From assembly GCA_016212095.1 (NCBI GenBank), contig JACRHH010000026.1, positions 1 to 54,192 of the forward strand: 54,192 nt of DNA. The letters are read 5' to 3'. Below, piece by piece: positions 39,801-47,900 of this stretch. How positions within the stretch are numbered: the stretch's first letter is position 1; every line of letters begins with the position of its first letter. Under the pieces are notes generated by a model, which worked only from the letters and a program-made list of their open reading frames with translations, ran no database searches and was not told the origin of the DNA. Source of the DNA: Nitrospirota bacterium. Its GTDB lineage: Bacteria; Nitrospirota; Thermodesulfovibrionia; SZUA-242. Position numbers and translations under genes: made by a program.

Positions 39801-40189
39801 CTGCGCCTCCTGAGGTTCCATTTTTCCTGGCAACGTCAAACGGTTGACTCGGCGGAAGCCCAAGTTCAGGCCGCCGCCAATGTAATAACGTTCCTACACC
39901 ATGTATTAACGGCCCGAATCAGCCAAATTCCAGTCCTGGCTGGCGCATGATGCTGTAAGGTTATTGACGCCAACATTCATTGCAATGTGTTGTTTAGCAA
40001 AAGAAGTGCCATATGATGCGGGGAACGATTTACGACGTGTAACGGCCTGGAAACCGGCAAATAATTCCGGCGTGTGGTCAGGATCTGCCGCAGACAGGGC
40101 GGGTGCGGAAAAGACAATGGATCGTTACGCTCTGCCGGGTTTTGCAAAACCGGCTGCGGCTTGATGATTTCTGCGAACCGCCTGTTTCG
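39801..40189. other. Intergenic region upstream of the glycan operon
   Basis: It holds the neuB ribosome binding site and, somewhere within it, presumably the operon promoter, but no convincing -35/-10 pair stands out. Short frames on both strands here have no recognisable protein features, and I see no gene. Confidence 0.4.
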
Positions 40190-40269
40190 GGCTAACATAA
40201 AGGTGAGGGGCGCGCCGAAGGCGCGTCCCGGCGACCGGAGAGGGAGCGGACTTGAGCGTTGGGTTAGGC
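40190..40269 (-). repeat. attC-like recombination site 3
   Basis: On the minus strand the 80 bases start GCCTAACCCAACGCTCAAGT and end TTTATGTTAGCC. The outer boxes fit the attC plan RYYYAAC...GTTRRRY with one mismatch, and a GGGACGCGCC/GGCGCGCCCC hairpin fills the centre. The antitoxin gene's last bases lie in its 5' box, as is usual for cassette genes ending in attC. Confidence 0.5.
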
Positions 40270-40524
40270 TGCACGCGCAAGTGGAACCTCCCAGCCGGGA
40301 AATACGAGCACAGCAGGATGGCACTGGAGAGCACGAGCAAAAACCTTTGCGCGCTCGACACCCAAATTTACTCTACCGTTTTCAATGGCTGAGATAGTGG
40401 CTTGAGGGATACCCGTAAGTTCGGAAAGCTGGCTTTGGCTCAACTCCTGGAGTTCACGCAAAATGCGAACTGACTCTCCCACCGAGACTTCAACTCGTTT
40501 CTTTGCGGGACGAAACTCTTTCAT
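40264..40524 (-). CDS. XRE-type HTH antitoxin (HigA-like)
   Basis: 86 residues. The helix-turn-helix domain spans about 18-75 (VRILRELQELSQSQLSELTG then IPQATISAIENGRVNLGVERA). The pair toxin-then-antitoxin on one transcript is the HigBA order. Its Shine-Dalgarno AGGAGG lies in the last codons of the toxin gene, 1 base separates the toxin stop from this ATG, and the stop falls in an attC-like box. Confidence 0.88.
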   Translation of the reverse strand: MKEFRPAKKRVEVSVGESVRILRELQELSQSQLSELTGIPQATISAIENGRVNLGVERAKVFARALQCHPAVLVFPGWEVPLARAA

Positions 40525-40525
40525 A

Positions 40526-40810
40526 TCATGGCCTCCTGTAATCGTGGGCGGTTACTTGAACAACTTGAATCAGCAATACATTGGCAACAATGCGGTAAAT
40601 CACCCGCCACTGGAGCCCTAGCCAGGAAGAACGATGGCCTTTCCATTCACCTGACAGCGCCTCGTCGTGAAATCCCTTGATAAGGCGCAATCCCTGCGGC
40701 CCCGATATTCTGGCAATGTCTTTCCACTTCTCGTAACGTTTCAGAACTTCAACAGGAACGGAGCCGGAAAGCTGTTTGTCAACGCGGCGGTGTTCTTCGA
40801 TTTCCCACAT
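40526..40810 (-). CDS. RelE/HigB-superfamily toxin
   Basis: 94 residues. IEEHRRVDKQLSGSVPVEVLKRYEKWKDIA is the N-terminal helical part and GEWKGHRSSWLGLQWRVIYRIVANVLLIQVVQVTAHDYRR the catalytic strands with the family's L-G-x-x-W-R-V-x-Y-R and C-terminal H-x-Y. It is probably an mRNA-cleaving toxin. It sits first in a two-gene cassette with its own promoter. Confidence 0.85.
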   Translation of the reverse strand: MWEIEEHRRVDKQLSGSVPVEVLKRYEKWKDIARISGPQGLRLIKGFHDEALSGEWKGHRSSWLGLQWRVIYRIVANVLLIQVVQVTAHDYRRP

Positions 40811-40815
40811 GCCAC

Positions 40816-40845
40816 ATTATGGCCATATCATAAATGGTATGTCAA
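40816..40845 (-). promoter_or_regulatory. Promoter of the HigBA-like module
   Basis: On the minus strand TTGACA (40845-40840), an 18-base spacer and CATAAT (40821-40816), ending 6 bases before the toxin ATG. The spacer contains an imperfect dyad (CCATTTATGATATGG), a plausible operator for antitoxin autoregulation. Confidence 0.65.
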
Positions 40846-40866
40846 GGGCGACGATTCTTGGGTGGG

Positions 40867-40917
40867 GCCTAACGTGGAGCTAACCGGCGTTGCGCTTTTG
40901 CGGTGTCCGGGTTGAAC
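40867..40917 (-). repeat. attC-like recombination site 2
   Basis: On the minus strand it begins GTTCAACCCGG and ends CCACGTTAGGC. Both outer boxes fit attC (RYYYAAC and GTTRRRY). At 51 bp it is slightly shorter than typical sites. The preceding antitoxin gene ends inside it at 40880. Confidence 0.5.
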
Positions 40918-41203
40918 GTCGGGGCTGGCTGGTTTGCGGCTCCACAAGACGCCCCGTGACGTACTTGTGAAGGACGCTGGACATCAGTGTTTGATAAGGG
41001 ATTGCTTCTTCTGCGGCCTTGGCCTGAATGTCATCAAGATCGCGGGAAGAGATGCGAATATTAACCCGCTTGTCTTTAGCCAGAGATGCGGAAGCCATTG
41101 CAGCAAAGCGTGCAATTTCACTGTTGCCCTTTGGAGAGGGTTGCCATTCTCCTCTTTCAAAGGAAGCCAGAATTTCTTCCTCAAGTTTTCTTTCTTTGTC
41201 CAT
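40880..41203 (-). CDS. BrnA/CopG-like antitoxin
   Basis: 107 residues. KRVNIRISSRDLDDIQAKAAEEAIPYQTLMSSVLHKYVTGRL is a ribbon-helix-helix/BrnA-type C-terminal DNA-binding domain. The N-terminal part (ILASFERGEWQPSP) is the usual toxin-binding arm of this group. The ATG at 41203 is chosen for the GAGGAG 7 bases before it and lies 1 base past the toxin stop. The last 20 residues are encoded in the attC-like site and are likely non-conserved. Confidence 0.8.
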   Translation of the reverse strand: MDKERKLEEEILASFERGEWQPSPKGNSEIARFAAMASASLAKDKRVNIRISSRDLDDIQAKAAEEAIPYQTLMSSVLHKYVTGRLVEPQTSQPRRSTRTPQKRNAG

Positions 41204-41204
41204 T

Positions 41205-41483
41205 TCAACGCTCCTCATCAAGGTAGATGCGAGTAGCTTTCCTGCTCGGTATGATTGTTTTCAGGAAGACTTCTTGCTTCGTCTCCACAAACGGCACCAG
41301 ATAGGCGTAGCCACGAATACGAACCACAAACATGCGTTGGTTCGGATATTGATCTGTGTTTGGATGATCCAGCACTACAAGAAGTCCGCCATTCGACATG
41401 GCCGACAACACCTCCTCAAAAGATACACCTCGCTCTGCTTTGAGGCGGATATTTTTCTCGGTATTCCAGCTCACAGGCTTCAT
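41205..41483 (-). CDS. BrnT-like toxin
   Basis: 92 residues. VSWNTEKNIRLKAERGVSFEEVLSAM is the BrnT N-terminal pattern (W-x-x-x-K-N...R-G-V-S-F-E-E), followed by HPNTDQYPNQRMFVVRIRGYAYLVPFVE and TIIPSRKATRIY, the RelE-like strands. BrnT proteins are RNase-type toxins neutralised by BrnA. It is the first gene of a two-gene unit with promoter and flanking attC-like sites. Confidence 0.85.
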   Translation of the reverse strand: MKPVSWNTEKNIRLKAERGVSFEEVLSAMSNGGLLVVLDHPNTDQYPNQRMFVVRIRGYAYLVPFVETKQEVFLKTIIPSRKATRIYLDEER

Positions 41484-41490
41484 GCGGTGA

Positions 41491-41520
41491 ATAATACACC
41501 TGTGTGCCTTATGGCATCAA
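41491..41520 (-). promoter_or_regulatory. Promoter of the BrnT/BrnA-like module
   Basis: TTGATG (41520-41515), an 18-base spacer and TATTAT (41496-41491), ending 7 bases before the toxin ATG. The -10 is embedded in GGTGTATTATTCACC, a dyad that could be the operator. Confidence 0.6.
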
Positions 41521-41523
41521 GTG

Positions 41524-41613
41524 GCCTAACGCCAAGCCTGATCCGAGCCCGCCGAGGACTTCAGGGAAAAGCAACAGGCGTGGTCGGGCGTCGGCTCGAT
41601 GCTTTTGTTATCC
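41524..41613 (-). repeat. attC-like recombination site 1
   Basis: On the minus strand the 90 bases start GGATAACAAAAGCATCGAGCC and end GATCAGGCTTGGCGTTAGGC (each within 21 bases of an end). The right box GTTAGGC is canonical, and inner arms CATCGAGCC and GGCTCGGAT pair with one bulge, as in attC L boxes. It lies 49 bases after the AIPR gene's stop and 4 bases before the next promoter. Confidence 0.6.
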
Positions 41614-41661
41614 CTTTTGTAATAATCCTTGCCGCATAGCGGCCCACCGTGCATAGTTCTC

Positions 41662-43389
41662 TTAGACACCATCCGCCGTGCATCTGACCGTCTCTTGTTT
41701 TGTGATTTTCACGCTGTTGTACACTTTTTCGCATTTGGTGACGTTCTGAAAAAGTGAACGCAGGTAGCCTGCGGCGTACTCCCCCTCGCAGTAAGTGAAA
41801 ACTTTATCGACTGTGGCAGCCAAGATACCGTCAAATCCTTCCCAGTCGAATTTGGGCAGGCATTCGTTCAATTCCTTGTCCCACCCGATATCTCTGACAG
41901 CAATTTGTGTCACCAAGAGGCTACCATTCGACATTACCTGCGCCTTCCGACCCGACCGGTCTTGCTCCGGGAGTGTCTTTTGCAAATTCTCAAGGTATGC
42001 ATAAGCGTGTCGCTTTATGATGACGCCGTTGATCACCGAGAAGCCAGTTGTGGACGGATTGAAGAGAATCTTGTAGGGTGCCCTGTCGGGAATGTAAAAT
42101 CGACCAACTTCTTTCCGGAAGACCGCTGTCAGGTTAGGCTGTTTAGAGACGACAACCATCGACTCAATCGCCTCATCGAGTCCAAAGGACTTCTCTGATG
42201 GCGCAAACGAGCTATCCCGCTTGACTTGATAGCGGAAGCCCTGCAGACGTATCTGCCTCTGAAGATCATCCTGAACGGGGTCTTGGGAGATGAAGTCTTT
42301 TGACAGTATCTCGTTCTGGGTATTGTTAGTTCGCGTAATCTCCTTCTTCAGAGATTCCGTGTCGCCAGATACAGCGATGACTCGGATGGGCACTTCAATT
42401 GTTGAGAGGTCAGCACCGGATTTTGCCAGATCTCCCAATACGCTGACTGTTTGGGCGCCGTTGACAACGCTCGCGCCTTCGGCCTTGAAGTACCCGAAGT
42501 CGCGATTGTCTCGGTTCTCTTTGGTCTTTTCGACGGACTCTGCAAGGAGTGTGATCCCGTTATTGAAGTACCAAAAGTACTCCGGGCGCCTTTTCGCCGT
42601 ATCCGCGATTTGGTCGTTCACTGGTGTTGAGCCAAGCATCTTCCGAATGTTTGAGTCAAGGAGTCGGTCACCATGTTCCTGCCACCATTCGCCGATTTTG
42701 GTCCCGTTAATTCTTCCGAAGTATGACTTCAGCGGCTCCGCCACCTGGCCCCATTCCTTTAGGTGGAATTCCAAATTGAGCGACGTTGCGGTACTATCAC
42801 TCGAAAGTATGTTGAAGATCGTGGGCCGGCTAAGACTATGATAGCGGAAAACTGGATCGTCGGTGGGATCGTCAAAATCATTCAGTCCCGAAATTAATTC
42901 GTCTACAATCTCTTGGCCGTGCTTCGCCAGCTCTGGTTTTCCCGTGTGCGCCAGGACAATGTCGAATTTCACACCAAAAGTGCTAACAGCTGTGAGTTCT
43001 GCTGTTTTCGTCTGAACTTTGGAGTTGAATTTGCTCAGTTTCCCGTCGAGGAAGTCGTGGATTCCATCCCGGAACGTTCGGAGTTCATTGGCAGATGGCT
43101 CACCGACACCGTCTTGGATGAACTTTGCTTGGACTATCGTAAGGCGTTTCGTGATCTGATTGTAGTATATGGCGTCCAGGCCATTGTCATCTCCTCCGTC
43201 AACAACCGCTTTCCCGGCAATCACTTCCGTGCATTCGCCGAGGTGGTGCGCAGCGAATGCCGCAATGCACCGTGTAGTCAATTTCGTCTCGAACTCTTTG
43301 TCAGAAGTGCTCAGGTCGGACGTGTCGATATGGGTGGCATACAGCTCACGCAGTCTCGATGCGATCTGCTTCACTATAACCTTGCTCAT
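41662..43389 (-). CDS. AIPR-family abortive-infection phage resistance protein
   Basis: 575 residues. The N-terminal third holds a PD-(D/E)XK-like core (GGDDNGLDAIYYNQITKRLT then IVQAKF, i.e. D...Q-x-K). RPEYFWYFNNGITLLAESVE (about 272-291) and EGASVVNGAQTVSVLGDLAK are the hallmark AIPR motifs. Members confer phage abortive infection in some hosts; the mechanism is probably nucleolytic. GGGAGA before the ATG at 43389 supports the start. Its codon use is more AT-rich than the glycan operon. Lying upstream of attC-like site 1, it could itself be a cassette. Confidence 0.88.
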   Translation of the reverse strand: MSKVIVKQIASRLRELYATHIDTSDLSTSDKEFETKLTTRCIAAFAAHHLGECTEVIAGKAVVDGGDDNGLDAIYYNQITKRLTIVQAKFIQDGVGEPSANELRTFRDGIHDFLDGKLSKFNSKVQTKTAELTAVSTFGVKFDIVLAHTGKPELAKHGQEIVDELISGLNDFDDPTDDPVFRYHSLSRPTIFNILSSDSTATSLNLEFHLKEWGQVAEPLKSYFGRINGTKIGEWWQEHGDRLLDSNIRKMLGSTPVNDQIADTAKRRPEYFWYFNNGITLLAESVEKTKENRDNRDFGYFKAEGASVVNGAQTVSVLGDLAKSGADLSTIEVPIRVIAVSGDTESLKKEITRTNNTQNEILSKDFISQDPVQDDLQRQIRLQGFRYQVKRDSSFAPSEKSFGLDEAIESMVVVSKQPNLTAVFRKEVGRFYIPDRAPYKILFNPSTTGFSVINGVIIKRHAYAYLENLQKTLPEQDRSGRKAQVMSNGSLLVTQIAVRDIGWDKELNECLPKFDWEGFDGILAATVDKVFTYCEGEYAAGYLRSLFQNVTKCEKVYNSVKITKQETVRCTADGV

Positions 43390-43887
43390 TCTATTTCATT
43401 TCTCCCTCGGTTTTGACCGAACTGCGCGGGCTTTTCCCTCTCTTCGTGCTCCTATCGATGATCATACTGGCTCATTGCCATCAACTTTCAACTCTCTCCT
43501 ATGCCTATGGATAACCAGTGATTAACCGGTTAACTCGTTATCCACAACCAGTTGCATGATTTTTTTACCATCGCTGCTCTTTTCCCAAGCAAACCTGCAA
43601 ATTCTAACTTGTTATTCACGCAAAAGGGGGAGATAACGAGTTTCTCGTTATCCAAGCTTGAAATCCTAGAACTGGAAGATCATCCCCCACTGCACCCCCT
43701 CGGCGTTATTCTCGGATGCGGTTAACTTAGCCGCCGGTTTGGGCGGATGTCAAGGGAAAACGCCGTTCCCGGACGGTTGCACTATTCAAGGATCACAATC
43801 CGAAGGCTGTCCAGCAAAAGCCGCTTGTTATTATCCTAAATCTCTCCAAGATGACCAAGAAACCGCCGGTTGTTTGCGGAACCGAAC
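43390..43887. other. Intergenic region with TTATCCA-type repeats
   Basis: No gene is seen. Two inverted repeats share the end GTTATCC: GGATAAC...GTTATCC with a central TTAACCGGTTAA (43509-43543), and a perfect hairpin GATAACGAG-ttt-CTCGTTATC (43632-43652). TTATCCACA (43538-43546) equals the DnaA-box consensus, and TTATTCACG lies at about 43611. The region is AT-richer than its surroundings. It may hold the AIPR operator. Confidence 0.5.
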
Positions 43888-46647
43888 CTAGAACGCATGT
43901 CCCAGGCTGAAATGAATCTCGAACCTGCTCTCGCCCGGTTCCGGGGCGAATTTTTGCCCGTAATCGAGCCTGAACGGCCCGACCGGCGTGTTGTAGCGGA
44001 TGCCGCCTCCATATGTGTACTTGAAACCCACCGGATTGACGTCCTCGGTTTTCTGCCAGACGTTTCCTCCATCCACAAAGCCCACCAGCCCCAGCCCCTT
44101 CCAGACATCAACCCGCAGCTCGGCGTTTCCGAGCGCGTACACGTTTCCGCCTGTCGGGGTTCCGTCATCGGCCTTCGGGCCGAGGGTGTCGCGGGCGTAT
44201 CCCCTCACGCTCGAACCGCCGCCCAGGAAAAAGCGCTCGACAATAGGAAGCTCCTTGTCGCGCCCCATGCCGTGGGCAAAGCCGCCCTTGAAGGACAGCG
44301 CCGCCACAAGCGGACGCGCCAGATGAAAATACCAACTGCTCTGGCCCGTCAGCTTGATGAATTCGGTCTCCGACATCAGGGCCTTGCTTGCGATCTTGAC
44401 CACGGCGGCGTTCAGCGAGCCGTGGCGCGGATTGAACGGATTGCTTCTGGTGTCGCGCGCAAGTGACGGGCTGAGGCTGCTTATTCCAAGCGTGCCGACG
44501 TCGTCACGGCTCAGAATCTCGCCCGGTCTCACGTTGAATGTATCCACAAACGAGTATTCATACTCCAGCGAGCCCTTGACCGTCTCGGAAAAATCGCGGT
44601 CTATTCCGGCGATGAATGCGCTGCGGTCGCTCTCGTATCGAATCTCGCGGGTGTCGGCGTCCAGCTTCCTCATGTTCTCGCGTATGAGCGCCGCCCGGAA
44701 CGGAAGCTTGTAACTGGTCAGAAGCCACGGGTCTTCATAGCGAAGAATCCATCGCCGCTCCACCGCGCTTGCCTCGCCGCGCAGTGAAAGCCTTCGGTTC
44801 AGGCCGCCCAGATTCCGGTGGCCTATCTCCACAAATCCGCGCGCAAGGTCGTAGTCGCCATATCCCACGCCGAAATCAACGGAGCCAAACGGGGCCTCGG
44901 TTACCCGCACAACCATGTCCTGGCTGTTGGGGCTTGCGCCCTCGCGCGCCGTCTCGATGTCAACGGACGAGAATATCCGCATCTTGTGAAGCGCCCGTTT
45001 GCCCTCCAGCACCTTGCGGTAGTCGAAATATTCGCCTTCCGAAACCCCGAATTCGCGCTGGATTATTCCGTCCAGGGTGCGGTGGTTTCCGGCGACTATC
45101 GTCTTGCCGAAGCGGAACTGGCGGCCTTCGGAGACCTGGAACACTATATCCACCTTCCGCATGTCATCCGAAAAATTACGCTGAAGATTCACCGACGCGT
45201 CAACGAATCCCGCCGAGCCGAACTTCTCGATCAACCGCATCCGCGCGTCGGATACGTCGGTCTCGTTGTATGTCCGGCCGATCTCCAGCCCAAGCGTATC
45301 GTGAATCTCCGATTCGTCGAAGGCCGTCACTCCCTCCAGCGCAACGCTTCTTATCGTTGTGCGCGGCCCCTCGCCGATTGTGACCGTAACCGATGCCTCG
45401 CCGGGCTTGAAGTCGAGATTGCGAGTGGAGACCATTGCCTCGGCCTTGAGCCAGCCAAGCGCGTTGTACAGCGAGATGATTCTGGCGATGCCCGCGCCAA
45501 GCCGCGCTTCGCTGTACGGATCGCCTTCCGGATAATCGAACGCCTCGCGAATTTTCTCTTCGGGCAGCGTGGCTCCGGTGAATTCAATCCTGCGCAGTAT
45601 TATCCTTGGCCCCTCGTAAATAAAAAAAACCACGACGCGCTCATCGCGCTCTTCCTCGACTGTGGCCGCAGCCTGCGCAAACGGATACCCGCGCTTGTGG
45701 TAAAGCGAGACATATCTGAGCGCCGCCTCCTCTATCGTTTCGTCGGAGAACGGTTCGACAGCTTCATCCATCCGGTATTCCGAAAGGAGTTCGTGTTCAT
45801 TGACCGCCTCGATCCCGTCGAACCTCACCCTGAACAGCGGCCCGTCGTCGAACACCACGCGAAGCGTCCCGTCCCTGAACGACCAATCCGGTTTGCGAGC
45901 CGCATAATGGCCGTCCAATTTCATGTCGGCATAAAGCCCATCAAGCGCGGCGCCGAGAGCCGCGCTGTTGAACCTGTCGCCGGCGGCAAACGGAATATGC
46001 ATCGCCACCCGCTCCCTGTCGCCGTTTCCCTCCAGTTCGATCCGTTGAACCAGCCTGGGCTCGCCTTCCGCAATCAAAATCTCAACGTCAACCACTCCCG
46101 AACCGGCTGCCGCTTCAGCCTTGATTGCAACCCTCGCATCGGGAAACCCGTATTCATCGTATGCCTTCTCAATCCGGCGCTCGACGTCGGATCTTCTGTC
46201 CGCATGGAATTCCGCGCCACGCCTGTAGCCGGACAACTTCATGATTTCCTTGTTCGGGAGGGCGAAATTGCCGTTTACAGTCACACCGGCAATTCGTGTC
46301 TTTTCAGTCACAACCACAAGTATCGGCACGCCGCCCTCATCGGGATCAAGCGCCTCAACCCTCACATCGGTGAATATGCCCTTCCTGAAAACGCGGGAAA
46401 TGCCGCGCCGCACGCGCTCCATCGTGATCTTCATTCCGGGATGCAGGCCAAACAGCTCCAGAAAATAGTCTTCGTCCATGCCGGTCAAGCCCTGAACCGC
46501 AACAACGGAAACCGGCCTGCCGAGATAATTTTGAGGTTCAGCGGCAGACGCGGGACATGCGGGCAGGAACGTGACGATCAGCCAGACAACCGCCACCAGC
46601 GCAAGCATACGGCGGATGGCCGATGCCGTTGTCCTGCGCTCATTCAT
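43888..46647 (-). CDS. BamA/TamA-type outer-membrane assembly protein
   Basis: 919 residues. A signal anchor/peptide at about 10-36 (VAVVWLIVTFLPACPASAAE) is followed by five or more POTRA repeats (about 45-560). A C-terminal 16-strand barrel holds the VRGY loop motif in GGGSSVRGYARDTLGPK, GGGIRYNTPVGPFRLDYG near the end and the C-terminal Phe (FSLGHAF) used as the assembly signal. It inserts or exports outer-membrane proteins. The sequence is longer than E. coli BamA (about 810), and it could be a second BamA/TamA paralogue. AAAGGAGG supports the start. No bam partners adjoin. Confidence 0.88.
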   Translation of the reverse strand: MNERRTTASAIRRMLALVAVVWLIVTFLPACPASAAEPQNYLGRPVSVVAVQGLTGMDEDYFLELFGLHPGMKITMERVRRGISRVFRKGIFTDVRVEALDPDEGGVPILVVVTEKTRIAGVTVNGNFALPNKEIMKLSGYRRGAEFHADRRSDVERRIEKAYDEYGFPDARVAIKAEAAAGSGVVDVEILIAEGEPRLVQRIELEGNGDRERVAMHIPFAAGDRFNSAALGAALDGLYADMKLDGHYAARKPDWSFRDGTLRVVFDDGPLFRVRFDGIEAVNEHELLSEYRMDEAVEPFSDETIEEAALRYVSLYHKRGYPFAQAAATVEEERDERVVVFFIYEGPRIILRRIEFTGATLPEEKIREAFDYPEGDPYSEARLGAGIARIISLYNALGWLKAEAMVSTRNLDFKPGEASVTVTIGEGPRTTIRSVALEGVTAFDESEIHDTLGLEIGRTYNETDVSDARMRLIEKFGSAGFVDASVNLQRNFSDDMRKVDIVFQVSEGRQFRFGKTIVAGNHRTLDGIIQREFGVSEGEYFDYRKVLEGKRALHKMRIFSSVDIETAREGASPNSQDMVVRVTEAPFGSVDFGVGYGDYDLARGFVEIGHRNLGGLNRRLSLRGEASAVERRWILRYEDPWLLTSYKLPFRAALIRENMRKLDADTREIRYESDRSAFIAGIDRDFSETVKGSLEYEYSFVDTFNVRPGEILSRDDVGTLGISSLSPSLARDTRSNPFNPRHGSLNAAVVKIASKALMSETEFIKLTGQSSWYFHLARPLVAALSFKGGFAHGMGRDKELPIVERFFLGGGSSVRGYARDTLGPKADDGTPTGGNVYALGNAELRVDVWKGLGLVGFVDGGNVWQKTEDVNPVGFKYTYGGGIRYNTPVGPFRLDYGQKFAPEPGESRFEIHFSLGHAF

Positions 46648-46803: not shown

Positions 46804-46878
46804 GGGCGATTGGCTCAGCGGAAGAGCACTGCCTTCACACGGCAGGGGTCGCAGGTTCGAACCCCGCATCGCCCACCA
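46804..46878 (+). tRNA. tRNA-Val (anticodon CAC)
   Basis: GGGCGAT/ATCGCCC form the acceptor stem, GCTC/GAGC the D stem and CTGCC/GGCAG the anticodon stem with loop TTCACAC, giving CAC, which reads GTG (Val). The T loop is TTCGAAC. CCA is encoded (46876-46878). The T stem GCAGG/CCCGC carries one A-C mismatch. The neighbouring recombinase genes suggest this gene is an integration site. Confidence 0.93.
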
Positions 46879-47226: not shown

Positions 47227-47820
47227 TCACCCGCTCCCACGCCCTTTCCCCTGCCTCCCCCTCCGTTTCTCATTAATCCTCCTGTTCCTGCTGCTCTTGT
47301 TCTCCTTCGCCTTGGCCTCATATTCCTTCGACTTGCTGTCCCACACAAACATCGGCAGCTCGGCACGTATGGCCGTTATCTGCGGATCGTCGGCATCGGG
47401 ATTGCGGCGTTCCCTGATTTTATGCATCCATTCGGCGAGTTCTTTAAGCTCATCTTGCGACAACGCCTTTGACTGCACCAGCGTCCAGCCGCGCCGGGTG
47501 AGACAGAGATCGCCCTGTTCGTTGAGGTAGCGCTTCGCAAGCTCAATTCGGCGGAGAAACTTTTTGTCACTTGCAGAAGCGGCGGCAGATTCCATTGCAG
47601 CCGGATCAATTCCTGCCGCGCGTAAACTTTCGGCTTTTGCTGAAGACAGCTTCCCAAGCTTGAGCCGGCTTTTCAGGCTGCGCACCCATACCGAAAGGCT
47701 TGCCGTATCGCCATGCTCCGGCGGAATTACGTTGCCTTCGGCGGCGATCCATGCCTTAAGCTCGCCAAGCATCCGCTCCCAAAGATCTTTGCGTTTTACC
47801 CCTCGTTTATCGAAACTCAT
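47227..47820 (-). CDS. Protein with helicase-associated-type domain, cargo gene
   Basis: 197 residues from the ATG at 47820; an upstream in-frame TTG at 47832 is less likely. Residues about 15-70 (WERMLGELKAWIAAEGNVIP, then LSVWVRSLKSRLKLGKLSSAKAESLRAAGI) follow the helicase-associated (HA) domain pattern W...L..w...G....p...L..W....R....G.L. The rest is charged and ends in an Arg/Gly/Lys-rich tail. HA domains are thought to bind nucleic acid. The role is unknown, perhaps in element maintenance. It is the gene closest to the tRNA end of the element. Confidence 0.65.
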   Translation of the reverse strand: MSFDKRGVKRKDLWERMLGELKAWIAAEGNVIPPEHGDTASLSVWVRSLKSRLKLGKLSSAKAESLRAAGIDPAAMESAAASASDKKFLRRIELAKRYLNEQGDLCLTRRGWTLVQSKALSQDELKELAEWMHKIRERRNPDADDPQITAIRAELPMFVWDSKSKEYEAKAKENKSSRNRRINEKRRGRQGKGRGSG

Positions 47821-47900
47821 CGGTTCAGGCAACTCGCTTCAACAATTAAGCACATAATCCAATTACACGCATACAAAATCCGGAGGCTTAAGAGTTGCTG

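Follow-up and report, generated by a model that had tools for sequence, protein, structure and literature searches.

How did a gene of the AIPR family and two toxin-antitoxin (TA) pairs come to follow one another in a single orientation in a Nitrospirota bacterium (assembly GCA_016212095.1), and do they form an array of integron cassettes? The window analyzed here is the whole contig JACRHH010000026.1 (54,192 bases, C20 hereafter), from a 2.97-Mb genome assembled in 39 contigs with a stated completeness of 100%. On its minus strand, the BamA gene is followed by the AIPR-family gene, a BrnT-like/CopG-like pair, a RelE-like/HTH pair, and then NeuB. A sequence-only reading had proposed that these genes belong to a cluster of attC sites lacking integrase (CALIN). 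Our analysis makes this very likely: on the minus strand, the array would consist of a leader, cassette A, attC1, cassette B, attC2, cassette C, and attC3 (Table 1). The presence of attC sites without any integrase over the family cut-off thus points to a CALIN, and the covariance-model matches, the single orientation, the stop codons located inside attC sites, and the complementarity of the R'' boxes to cassette starts all fit this interpretation. The sequence itself displays attC1 and attC2, G^TT boundaries for cassettes A and C, no integrase over the cut-off, and a leader shared with other cassettes of the genome.

attC sites and cassette boundaries

Two covariance models of attC were used. 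The first, R1, was trained on 22 attC sites found in 9 of 20 stretches around integrase genes of other genomes of the phylum, none of them from the window; these sites were oriented via the extra base in the 5' inner arm and aligned, and the resulting model has 20 base pairs. Because its training sites were chosen by a script and by eye, R1 leans towards palindromic GC-rich sites. The second, R2, was built from 38 sites detected by R1 in the same loci and is hence not independent of R1. An unfiltered search of the window with R1 returned 14 matches at E ≤ 10, the first three of which were the three sites previously claimed by eye, all on the minus strand; the fourth-best match reached 11.6 bits. 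For comparison, the best R1 match in five further stretches of the genome (51 kb, including one site on contig C2 that R1 missed) was 11.2 bits, and eight genomes of family f10 (approximately 15 Mb, without an IntI match, picked post hoc) gave a single R1 match in total at E ≤ 0.5 under stricter filters. At least one R1 match at E ≤ 0.5 was present in 28 of the 41 genomes searched. With R2, attC1 came first and attC2 second in the window. Both sites exceed chance unaided and are secure by score, whereas attC3 is not, because it falls to background with R2; this third site is supported mainly by its position, since the stop codon of the antitoxin gene lies within its R'' box and this box is complementary at 7/7 positions to the start of its own cassette. 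The proposed model check gave matches at all three sites, of which two are secure by score. As given in an excerpt of PMC12444791, the default threshold of IntegronFinder is two attC sites; attC1 and attC2 are adjacent, with a 657-bp cassette between their cores, and attC3 is a marginal addition.

The GTTCAAC motif, which had been taken for the outer box of the second site, aligns to the inner arm, and the model instead places a degenerate outer box, AGCCAGC, at 40930-40924. attC1 folds as a bulged hairpin, with close energies for the two strands (-13.5 and -13.1 kcal/mol, computed without shuffle comparison). Ranking R''/R' pairs by free energy failed to distinguish attC sites from the background.

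Once a cassette is circular, its own 5' end supplies the core with which its R'' box pairs. The start of the AIPR cassette, G^TTATCC (43515-43509), is complementary at 7/7 positions to the R'' box of attC1 (GGATAAC, 41613-41607), and GTTATCC is present once on that strand within the 498-bp spacer upstream of AIPR. This start was first spotted through the R'' complement, and its position was fixed afterwards by the alignment of the leaders. The AIPR gene, reported earlier as lying ahead of the first TA operon, is thus bounded like a cassette, with a G^TT core at either end. Cassette C follows the same rule at 7/7 positions. Across nine cassettes of the genome, R'' agreed with the start of the cassette to which it belongs at 30 of the 36 variable positions, as compared with 16 of 36 for the R' box of the same site (P 0.0003 by permutation of the starts). 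Because the start of one cassette on contig C1 (C1-A) had been located by seeking the complement of its R'', the permutations were rerun without it (P 0.002), then without it and a cassette inferred to span contigs C21 and C10 (P 0.005), and finally without the C2 cassette as well (P 0.03). The stop codons of the CopG-like and HTH_3 genes lie inside attC2 and attC3, respectively.

Two intI-bearing integrons in a genome of the same family, G002 (L051 15740-17138 and L052 11164-12820), have a first cassette start that, by eye, fully complements the R'' box of the attC site, and they can be regarded as an apparent positive example of this boundary rule.

Table 1. Positions of the array components and of the upstream neighbour in the window.
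Feature	Position	Strand	Scores and remarks
attI-like leader, repeated in genome	43509..43753	-	ends at crossover core G^TTATCC (43515-43509)
AIPR-family gene, 575 aa, cassette A (span 43514-41530)	41662..43389	-	PF10592 119.3 bits, residues 244-393
attC1	41524..41613	-	R'' GGATAAC, R' GTTAGGC; R1 36.5 bits, E 2.5e-6; R2 38.5 bits, E 1.1e-6
Promoter-like site TTGATG-N18-TATTAT, start of cassette B	41491..41520	-	9/12
BrnT-like toxin gene, 92 aa, cassette B (span 41529-40873)	41205..41483	-	PF04365 33.2 bits, just below cut-off 34.5
CopG-like antitoxin gene, 113 aa, cassette B	40880..41221	-	PF12441 24.2 bits, below cut-off 28; stop inside attC2
attC2	40867..40930	-	degenerate R'' AGCCAGC (40930-40924), R' GTTAGGC; R1 22.9 bits, E 0.0033; R2 20.9 bits, E 0.012
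Promoter-like site TTGACA-N18-CATAAT, start of cassette C	40816..40845	-	11/12
RelE/YafQ-like toxin gene, 94 aa, cassette C (span 40872-40196)	40526..40810	-	TIGR02385 31.7 bits (cut-off 27.9); PF15738 23 bits (below cut-off 30)
HTH_3 antitoxin gene, 86 aa, cassette C	40264..40524	-	PF01381 53.2 bits; TAA stop within R'' GCCTAAC
attC3	40190..40269	-	R'' GCCTAAC, R' GTTAGCC; weakest of the three; R1 15.8 bits, E 0.13; R2 12.9 bits, E 0.8
BamA/Omp85 gene	43888..46647	-	upstream neighbour, outside the unit

Integrase search and the repeated leader

No integron integrase above the TIGR02249 cut-off was found in the whole assembly (best match 67.9 bits against 265, with 11 of 11 candidates scored), in agreement with the earlier description of an array devoid of integrase. 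All 14 control genomes likewise gave sub-cut-off matches, which probably come from related Xer-type recombinases. An integrase over the family cut-off was detected in 66 of 295 phylum genomes searched, and G002 carries two such IntI genes. A complete integron, with intI beside attI, was not found in the assembly.

The element was previously thought to end upstream at 43389, but it extends to about 43753, and a 245-bp stretch before AIPR had been overlooked. This leader comprises a 5' promoter-like part (TTGACA-N18-TAAGTT), which in C20 falls under the threshold of the promoter scan, a hairpin, GGATAACGAGAAACTCGTTATC, and a box of the form ATAACGAG..AAC..GTTAATCAC. The genome contains further copies, full or partial, of the 212 bases that precede the start of the AIPR cassette, on C26, C21, C2, C36, C15, and C5; on C7, one 3-mismatch match to the leader 5' part was also observed. 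The 3' box, ATAACGAGnnAACnnGTTAAnCAC, was found four times at ≤2 mismatches (C2, C20, C21, and C26), as compared with zero for a reversed-pattern control. All four copies have a GTT 2-3 bases past the box, beyond which the sequences diverge, and end, as an attI site does, at the G^TT of a first cassette. An attC site lies behind three of them, and the contig of the fourth (C21) ends 445 bases past the junction. The promoter-like TTGACW-N18-TAnnnT is kept at the 5' end of five leader copies. Three copies differ: on C5 (L139 15660-15800), before a HARE-HTH gene, the box is one base shorter with the GTT at the same place; on C36 (L137 1545-1765), before an HNH gene, it is one base shorter and lacks the GTT; and on C15 (L138 1240-1320) only the leader 5' part is present. 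A search for attC-like sites behind the decayed leader copies of C5 and C36 returned none.

The genes preceding the leaders encode BamA, a BtuR-type corrinoid adenosyltransferase, PheT, and an HDOD protein. Since the leaders begin 135 (C20), 51 (C26), 74 (C21), and about 230 (C2) bases behind the preceding gene, these loci have no room for intI. Comparison of the leader loci on either side revealed no shared sequence of the kind expected at the end of a transposon (best homology E 0.009 over 21 bases). Outside this genome, a search of 60 relatives with the leader gave a 30-bp match only, and the exact leader core pattern had no match in genome_contigs and viral_contigs, from which the records of the genome itself were possibly left out.

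The end of the C20 leader (43509-43543) is a 35-bp palindrome with weak attC-model scores on the plus strand (11.1 bits with R1 and 13.0 bits with R2), and the palindrome of the C2 leader scores similarly (10.4 and 12.3 bits). A likeness of the leader to the attI region of G002 (GATAAC..GTTATC, GTGAATAA), noticed by eye, was unsupported by alignment scores and was not used as evidence. We rejected the view that the start of the leader encodes a porin C-terminus, because the C21 copy has no stop codon.

Further attC sites were detected near small or toxin-type genes on C1, C2, C10, and C26; the whole-genome search scored 150 of 2175 candidates and overlooked sites that were detected later, so that the attC count for the genome is a minimum. 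C26 carries a 163-aa gene and one attC (37.6 bits), followed by DUF1801. C2 carries a DUF2059 gene and a 134-nt attC, whose R'' box ACATAAC matches the start GTTATGT at 7/7 positions. On C21 (L127 6466-6913), a gene starting at GTTGGGC heads to the contig end, with a start that is transposase-like by eye (22 residues, without a Pfam match). C10 (L079 5815-6948) begins with 33 residues matching integrase-core families below cut-off (18 bits), followed by an attC with the R'' box GCCCAAC (7/7 to the GTTGGGC of C21), a BrnT cassette (78.3 bits), and a second attC. The arrays on C21 and C10 both end near contig ends; the cassette halves with boxes matching at 7/7 positions and the transposase-like pieces, which are weak, suggest one cassette split by an insertion sequence. 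Finally, C1 (L078 4347-6317) carries a 343-aa gene, an attC, a PIN-domain gene with a small partner, and an attC; this array starts at GTTAGCT without a leader and may thus be an off-target insertion. Two long attC sites (133 nt, L078 5398-5530, and 134 nt, L128 5898-6031) share the inner arm ACGAGTGCCACAGGACnCTTTT, which was found only at those two sites in the genome (≤3 mismatches).

Cargo genes and their neighbourhood

The AIPR protein matched the PADLOC AbiU profile with 85.5 bits over residues 100-387 only and MzaE with 59.2 bits, for a cut-off of 1050. It does not therefore match the anti-phage AIPR systems AbiU and MZA over its full length; partner genes of these systems were not searched for. 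No structurally solved relative was found by sequence at E ≤ 0.001. An AIPR match at E ≤ 1e-10 was present in 31 of 395 phylum genomes, including the genome under study, the nearest being 37% identical. Among 84,980 species genomes, 28 stretches matched the search pattern and none was a relative, and AIPR matches in plasmids were below 60% identity in 110 of 110 records. A second AIPR-family gene of the same genome (L139 1349-3031, on C5) matched PF10592 with 185.4 bits and is 29% identical to the cassette-borne one over part of its length; no attC was found on the 17.5-kb C5 stretch that bears it. A defence role for the cassette-borne AIPR is suggested by its family name only. The open-access literature listings brought up no work that treats AIPR as a cassette; the one paper returned for AIPR together with integron cassettes is, by its title, on Listeria proteomics.

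Open reading frames and profile matches confirmed the two TA operons, in the same orientation as AIPR. As to the idea that each TA operon has its own promoter, both named promoter-like sites are present, but the number of such sites in the region is not unusual, since 4 were found as compared with a mean of 3.4 (sd 1.5) in shuffles. No Rfam match was obtained in 39900-43900 at the gathering score or at E ≤ 1.

The genomes G001 and G002 represent the other two genera of the family; there, a 175-180-aa gene without a Pfam match comes after BamA, and in G002 ribosomal protein L21 comes next. In the genome studied here, the array occupies the place of the 175-180-aa gene and is followed by NeuB, indicating that the region was rearranged. 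A tRNA-Val gene lies at 46804-46878, close to the start of BamA, and beyond it, at 47227-47832, a gene with a helicase-associated domain.

Origin of the array and comparison with known systems

Several observations weigh against the CALIN interpretation. At the level of the sites, attC3 is unconfirmed by score, ranking fourth with R2 below the leader palindrome (13.0 bits) and near background (12.1 bits), and R1 missed the 134-nt attC of C2, which was found via the R'' rule and then weakly by R2 (16.8 bits, E 0.16). The attC1 stem doubles as a terminator-like site on the plus strand (41582-41604), and such sites are commoner in the region than in shuffles (10 vs 4.8, sd 2.1). Cassette B breaks the R'' rule, as the degenerate R'' box of attC2 matches the start of its own cassette at 3/7 positions, and the BrnT-like and CopG-like proteins score under their Pfam cut-offs. 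AIPR as a cassette looks rare among phylum genomes, because none of the 29 AIPR loci examined, out of 35 other places, has an attC in its flanks of about 1.5 kb (E ≤ 1, default filters). The empty site was not demonstrable, the nearest genomes compared (G001 and G002) belonging to other genera and being too distant. When the leader was compared at the DNA level with 29 intI-upstream regions of other genomes (one of 30 was too short), no clear likeness emerged (best z 3.8 across the three comparison sets, with simple shuffles, three leader copies, and the best eight comparisons per set); the leader neither adjoins an intI gene nor shows kinship to an attI that does. Finally, the assembly is in 39 contigs, so that an integrase could lie in a gap.

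It is nevertheless very improbable that the sites are chance palindromes or terminators in an ordinary defence/TA island. TA and AIPR genes are common in islands, and the background score of attC3 and the terminator-like stem of attC1 would fit such a view, but attC1 and attC2 are well above background, the sites share one orientation, gene stops lie inside attC2 and attC3, and cassette starts are complementary to R'' boxes up to 2 kb distant. An ordinary integron whose intI is merely missing from the assembly, for example past a contig end, is also improbable, if less so. The arrays of C21 and C10 do stop close to contig ends, and the two IntI genes of G002 indicate that the family has this enzyme; against this stand the stated completeness, the absence of any match above 67.9 bits, and the position of the leaders close behind other genes, which leaves these loci themselves without intI.

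Within the CALIN interpretation, we read the 245-bp leader as an attI-like platform dispersed without its integrase. A former IntI would have acted in trans, folding attC sites in their single-stranded form and joining cassette circles to the G^TT of the leader; with IntI gone, the array would be fixed. AIPR is probably transcribed from the leader, and the TA pairs, with their own promoter-like sites, would resist loss of the array. Mobility of the array and a function in defence are both putative. More broadly, an attachment platform combining promoter-like and attI-like parts may have become a dispersed element, whose copies took up cassettes via a lost integrase acting in trans, one integron being split into many small, individually expressed arrays. 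We regard this broader proposal as tentative and rather doubtful, and we lowered our estimate of it slightly because no attC accompanies the C21 cassette on that contig and the evidence for an insertion sequence at the contig ends is weak. The main rival, which would alter the origin of the array and not its status as a CALIN, is that the leader is a dispersed repeat that served as a secondary, attG-type target for off-target insertion by IntI in trans, rather than an attI. This is a serious possibility, although still short of probable. Off-target insertion is a route to CALINs named in the part of PMC8618304 consulted, and it is consistent with the unrelated genes upstream of the leaders, the lack of room for intI, the flanks without homology, the absence of clear likeness to intI-upstream regions, the copies without a proven cassette on C36, C5, and C15, and the leaderless start of the C1 array. 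However, GTT stands 2-3 bases past every one of the four 3' boxes, an attC lies behind three of these copies while the contig of the fourth ends 445 bases on, and the promoter-like sequence kept in five copies fits a platform better than a random target.

Earlier work has established the existence of CALINs, the stabilisation of arrays by TA cassettes, and the carriage of phage-resistance functions by cassettes (excerpts of PMC8618304, PMC11551772, and PMC12444791). Our array differs from known CALINs by its repeated attI-like leader, which recurs before other cassettes of the genome; in the open-access literature listings, we came across no account of attI-like leaders that recur in a genome without integrase. 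It resembles sedentary chromosomal integrons of the Vibrio superintegron type in having cassettes with TA pairs, which stabilise arrays (PMC11551772, in excerpt), but here intI is lacking and arrays of one to three cassettes are spread over several loci. Insertions at attG sites also place cassettes away from attI and attC, and the leaderless C1 array could be one; in E. coli, such insertions are scattered over numerous loci (PMC12444791, same excerpt), whereas the arrays described here begin at copies of one conserved stretch and not at unrelated sites. The unusual cassettes of the deltaattI type share with our case an attI-derived sequence beside cassettes and away from an intact platform. 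In the portion of PMC12901181 that describes them, their attI piece is placed after the gene and serves as the site of the cassette itself, whereas our leader precedes the first cassette.

Three origins of integrase-less arrays, namely off-target insertion, loss of intI, and rearrangement, are listed in the excerpt of PMC8618304. The single genome studied here holds arrays behind copies of one leader together with one leaderless array, so that the routes to a CALIN can be distinguished by sequence and tested with the integrase of the genome of the same family. The array further extends the possible defence cargo of integron cassettes to an AIPR gene.

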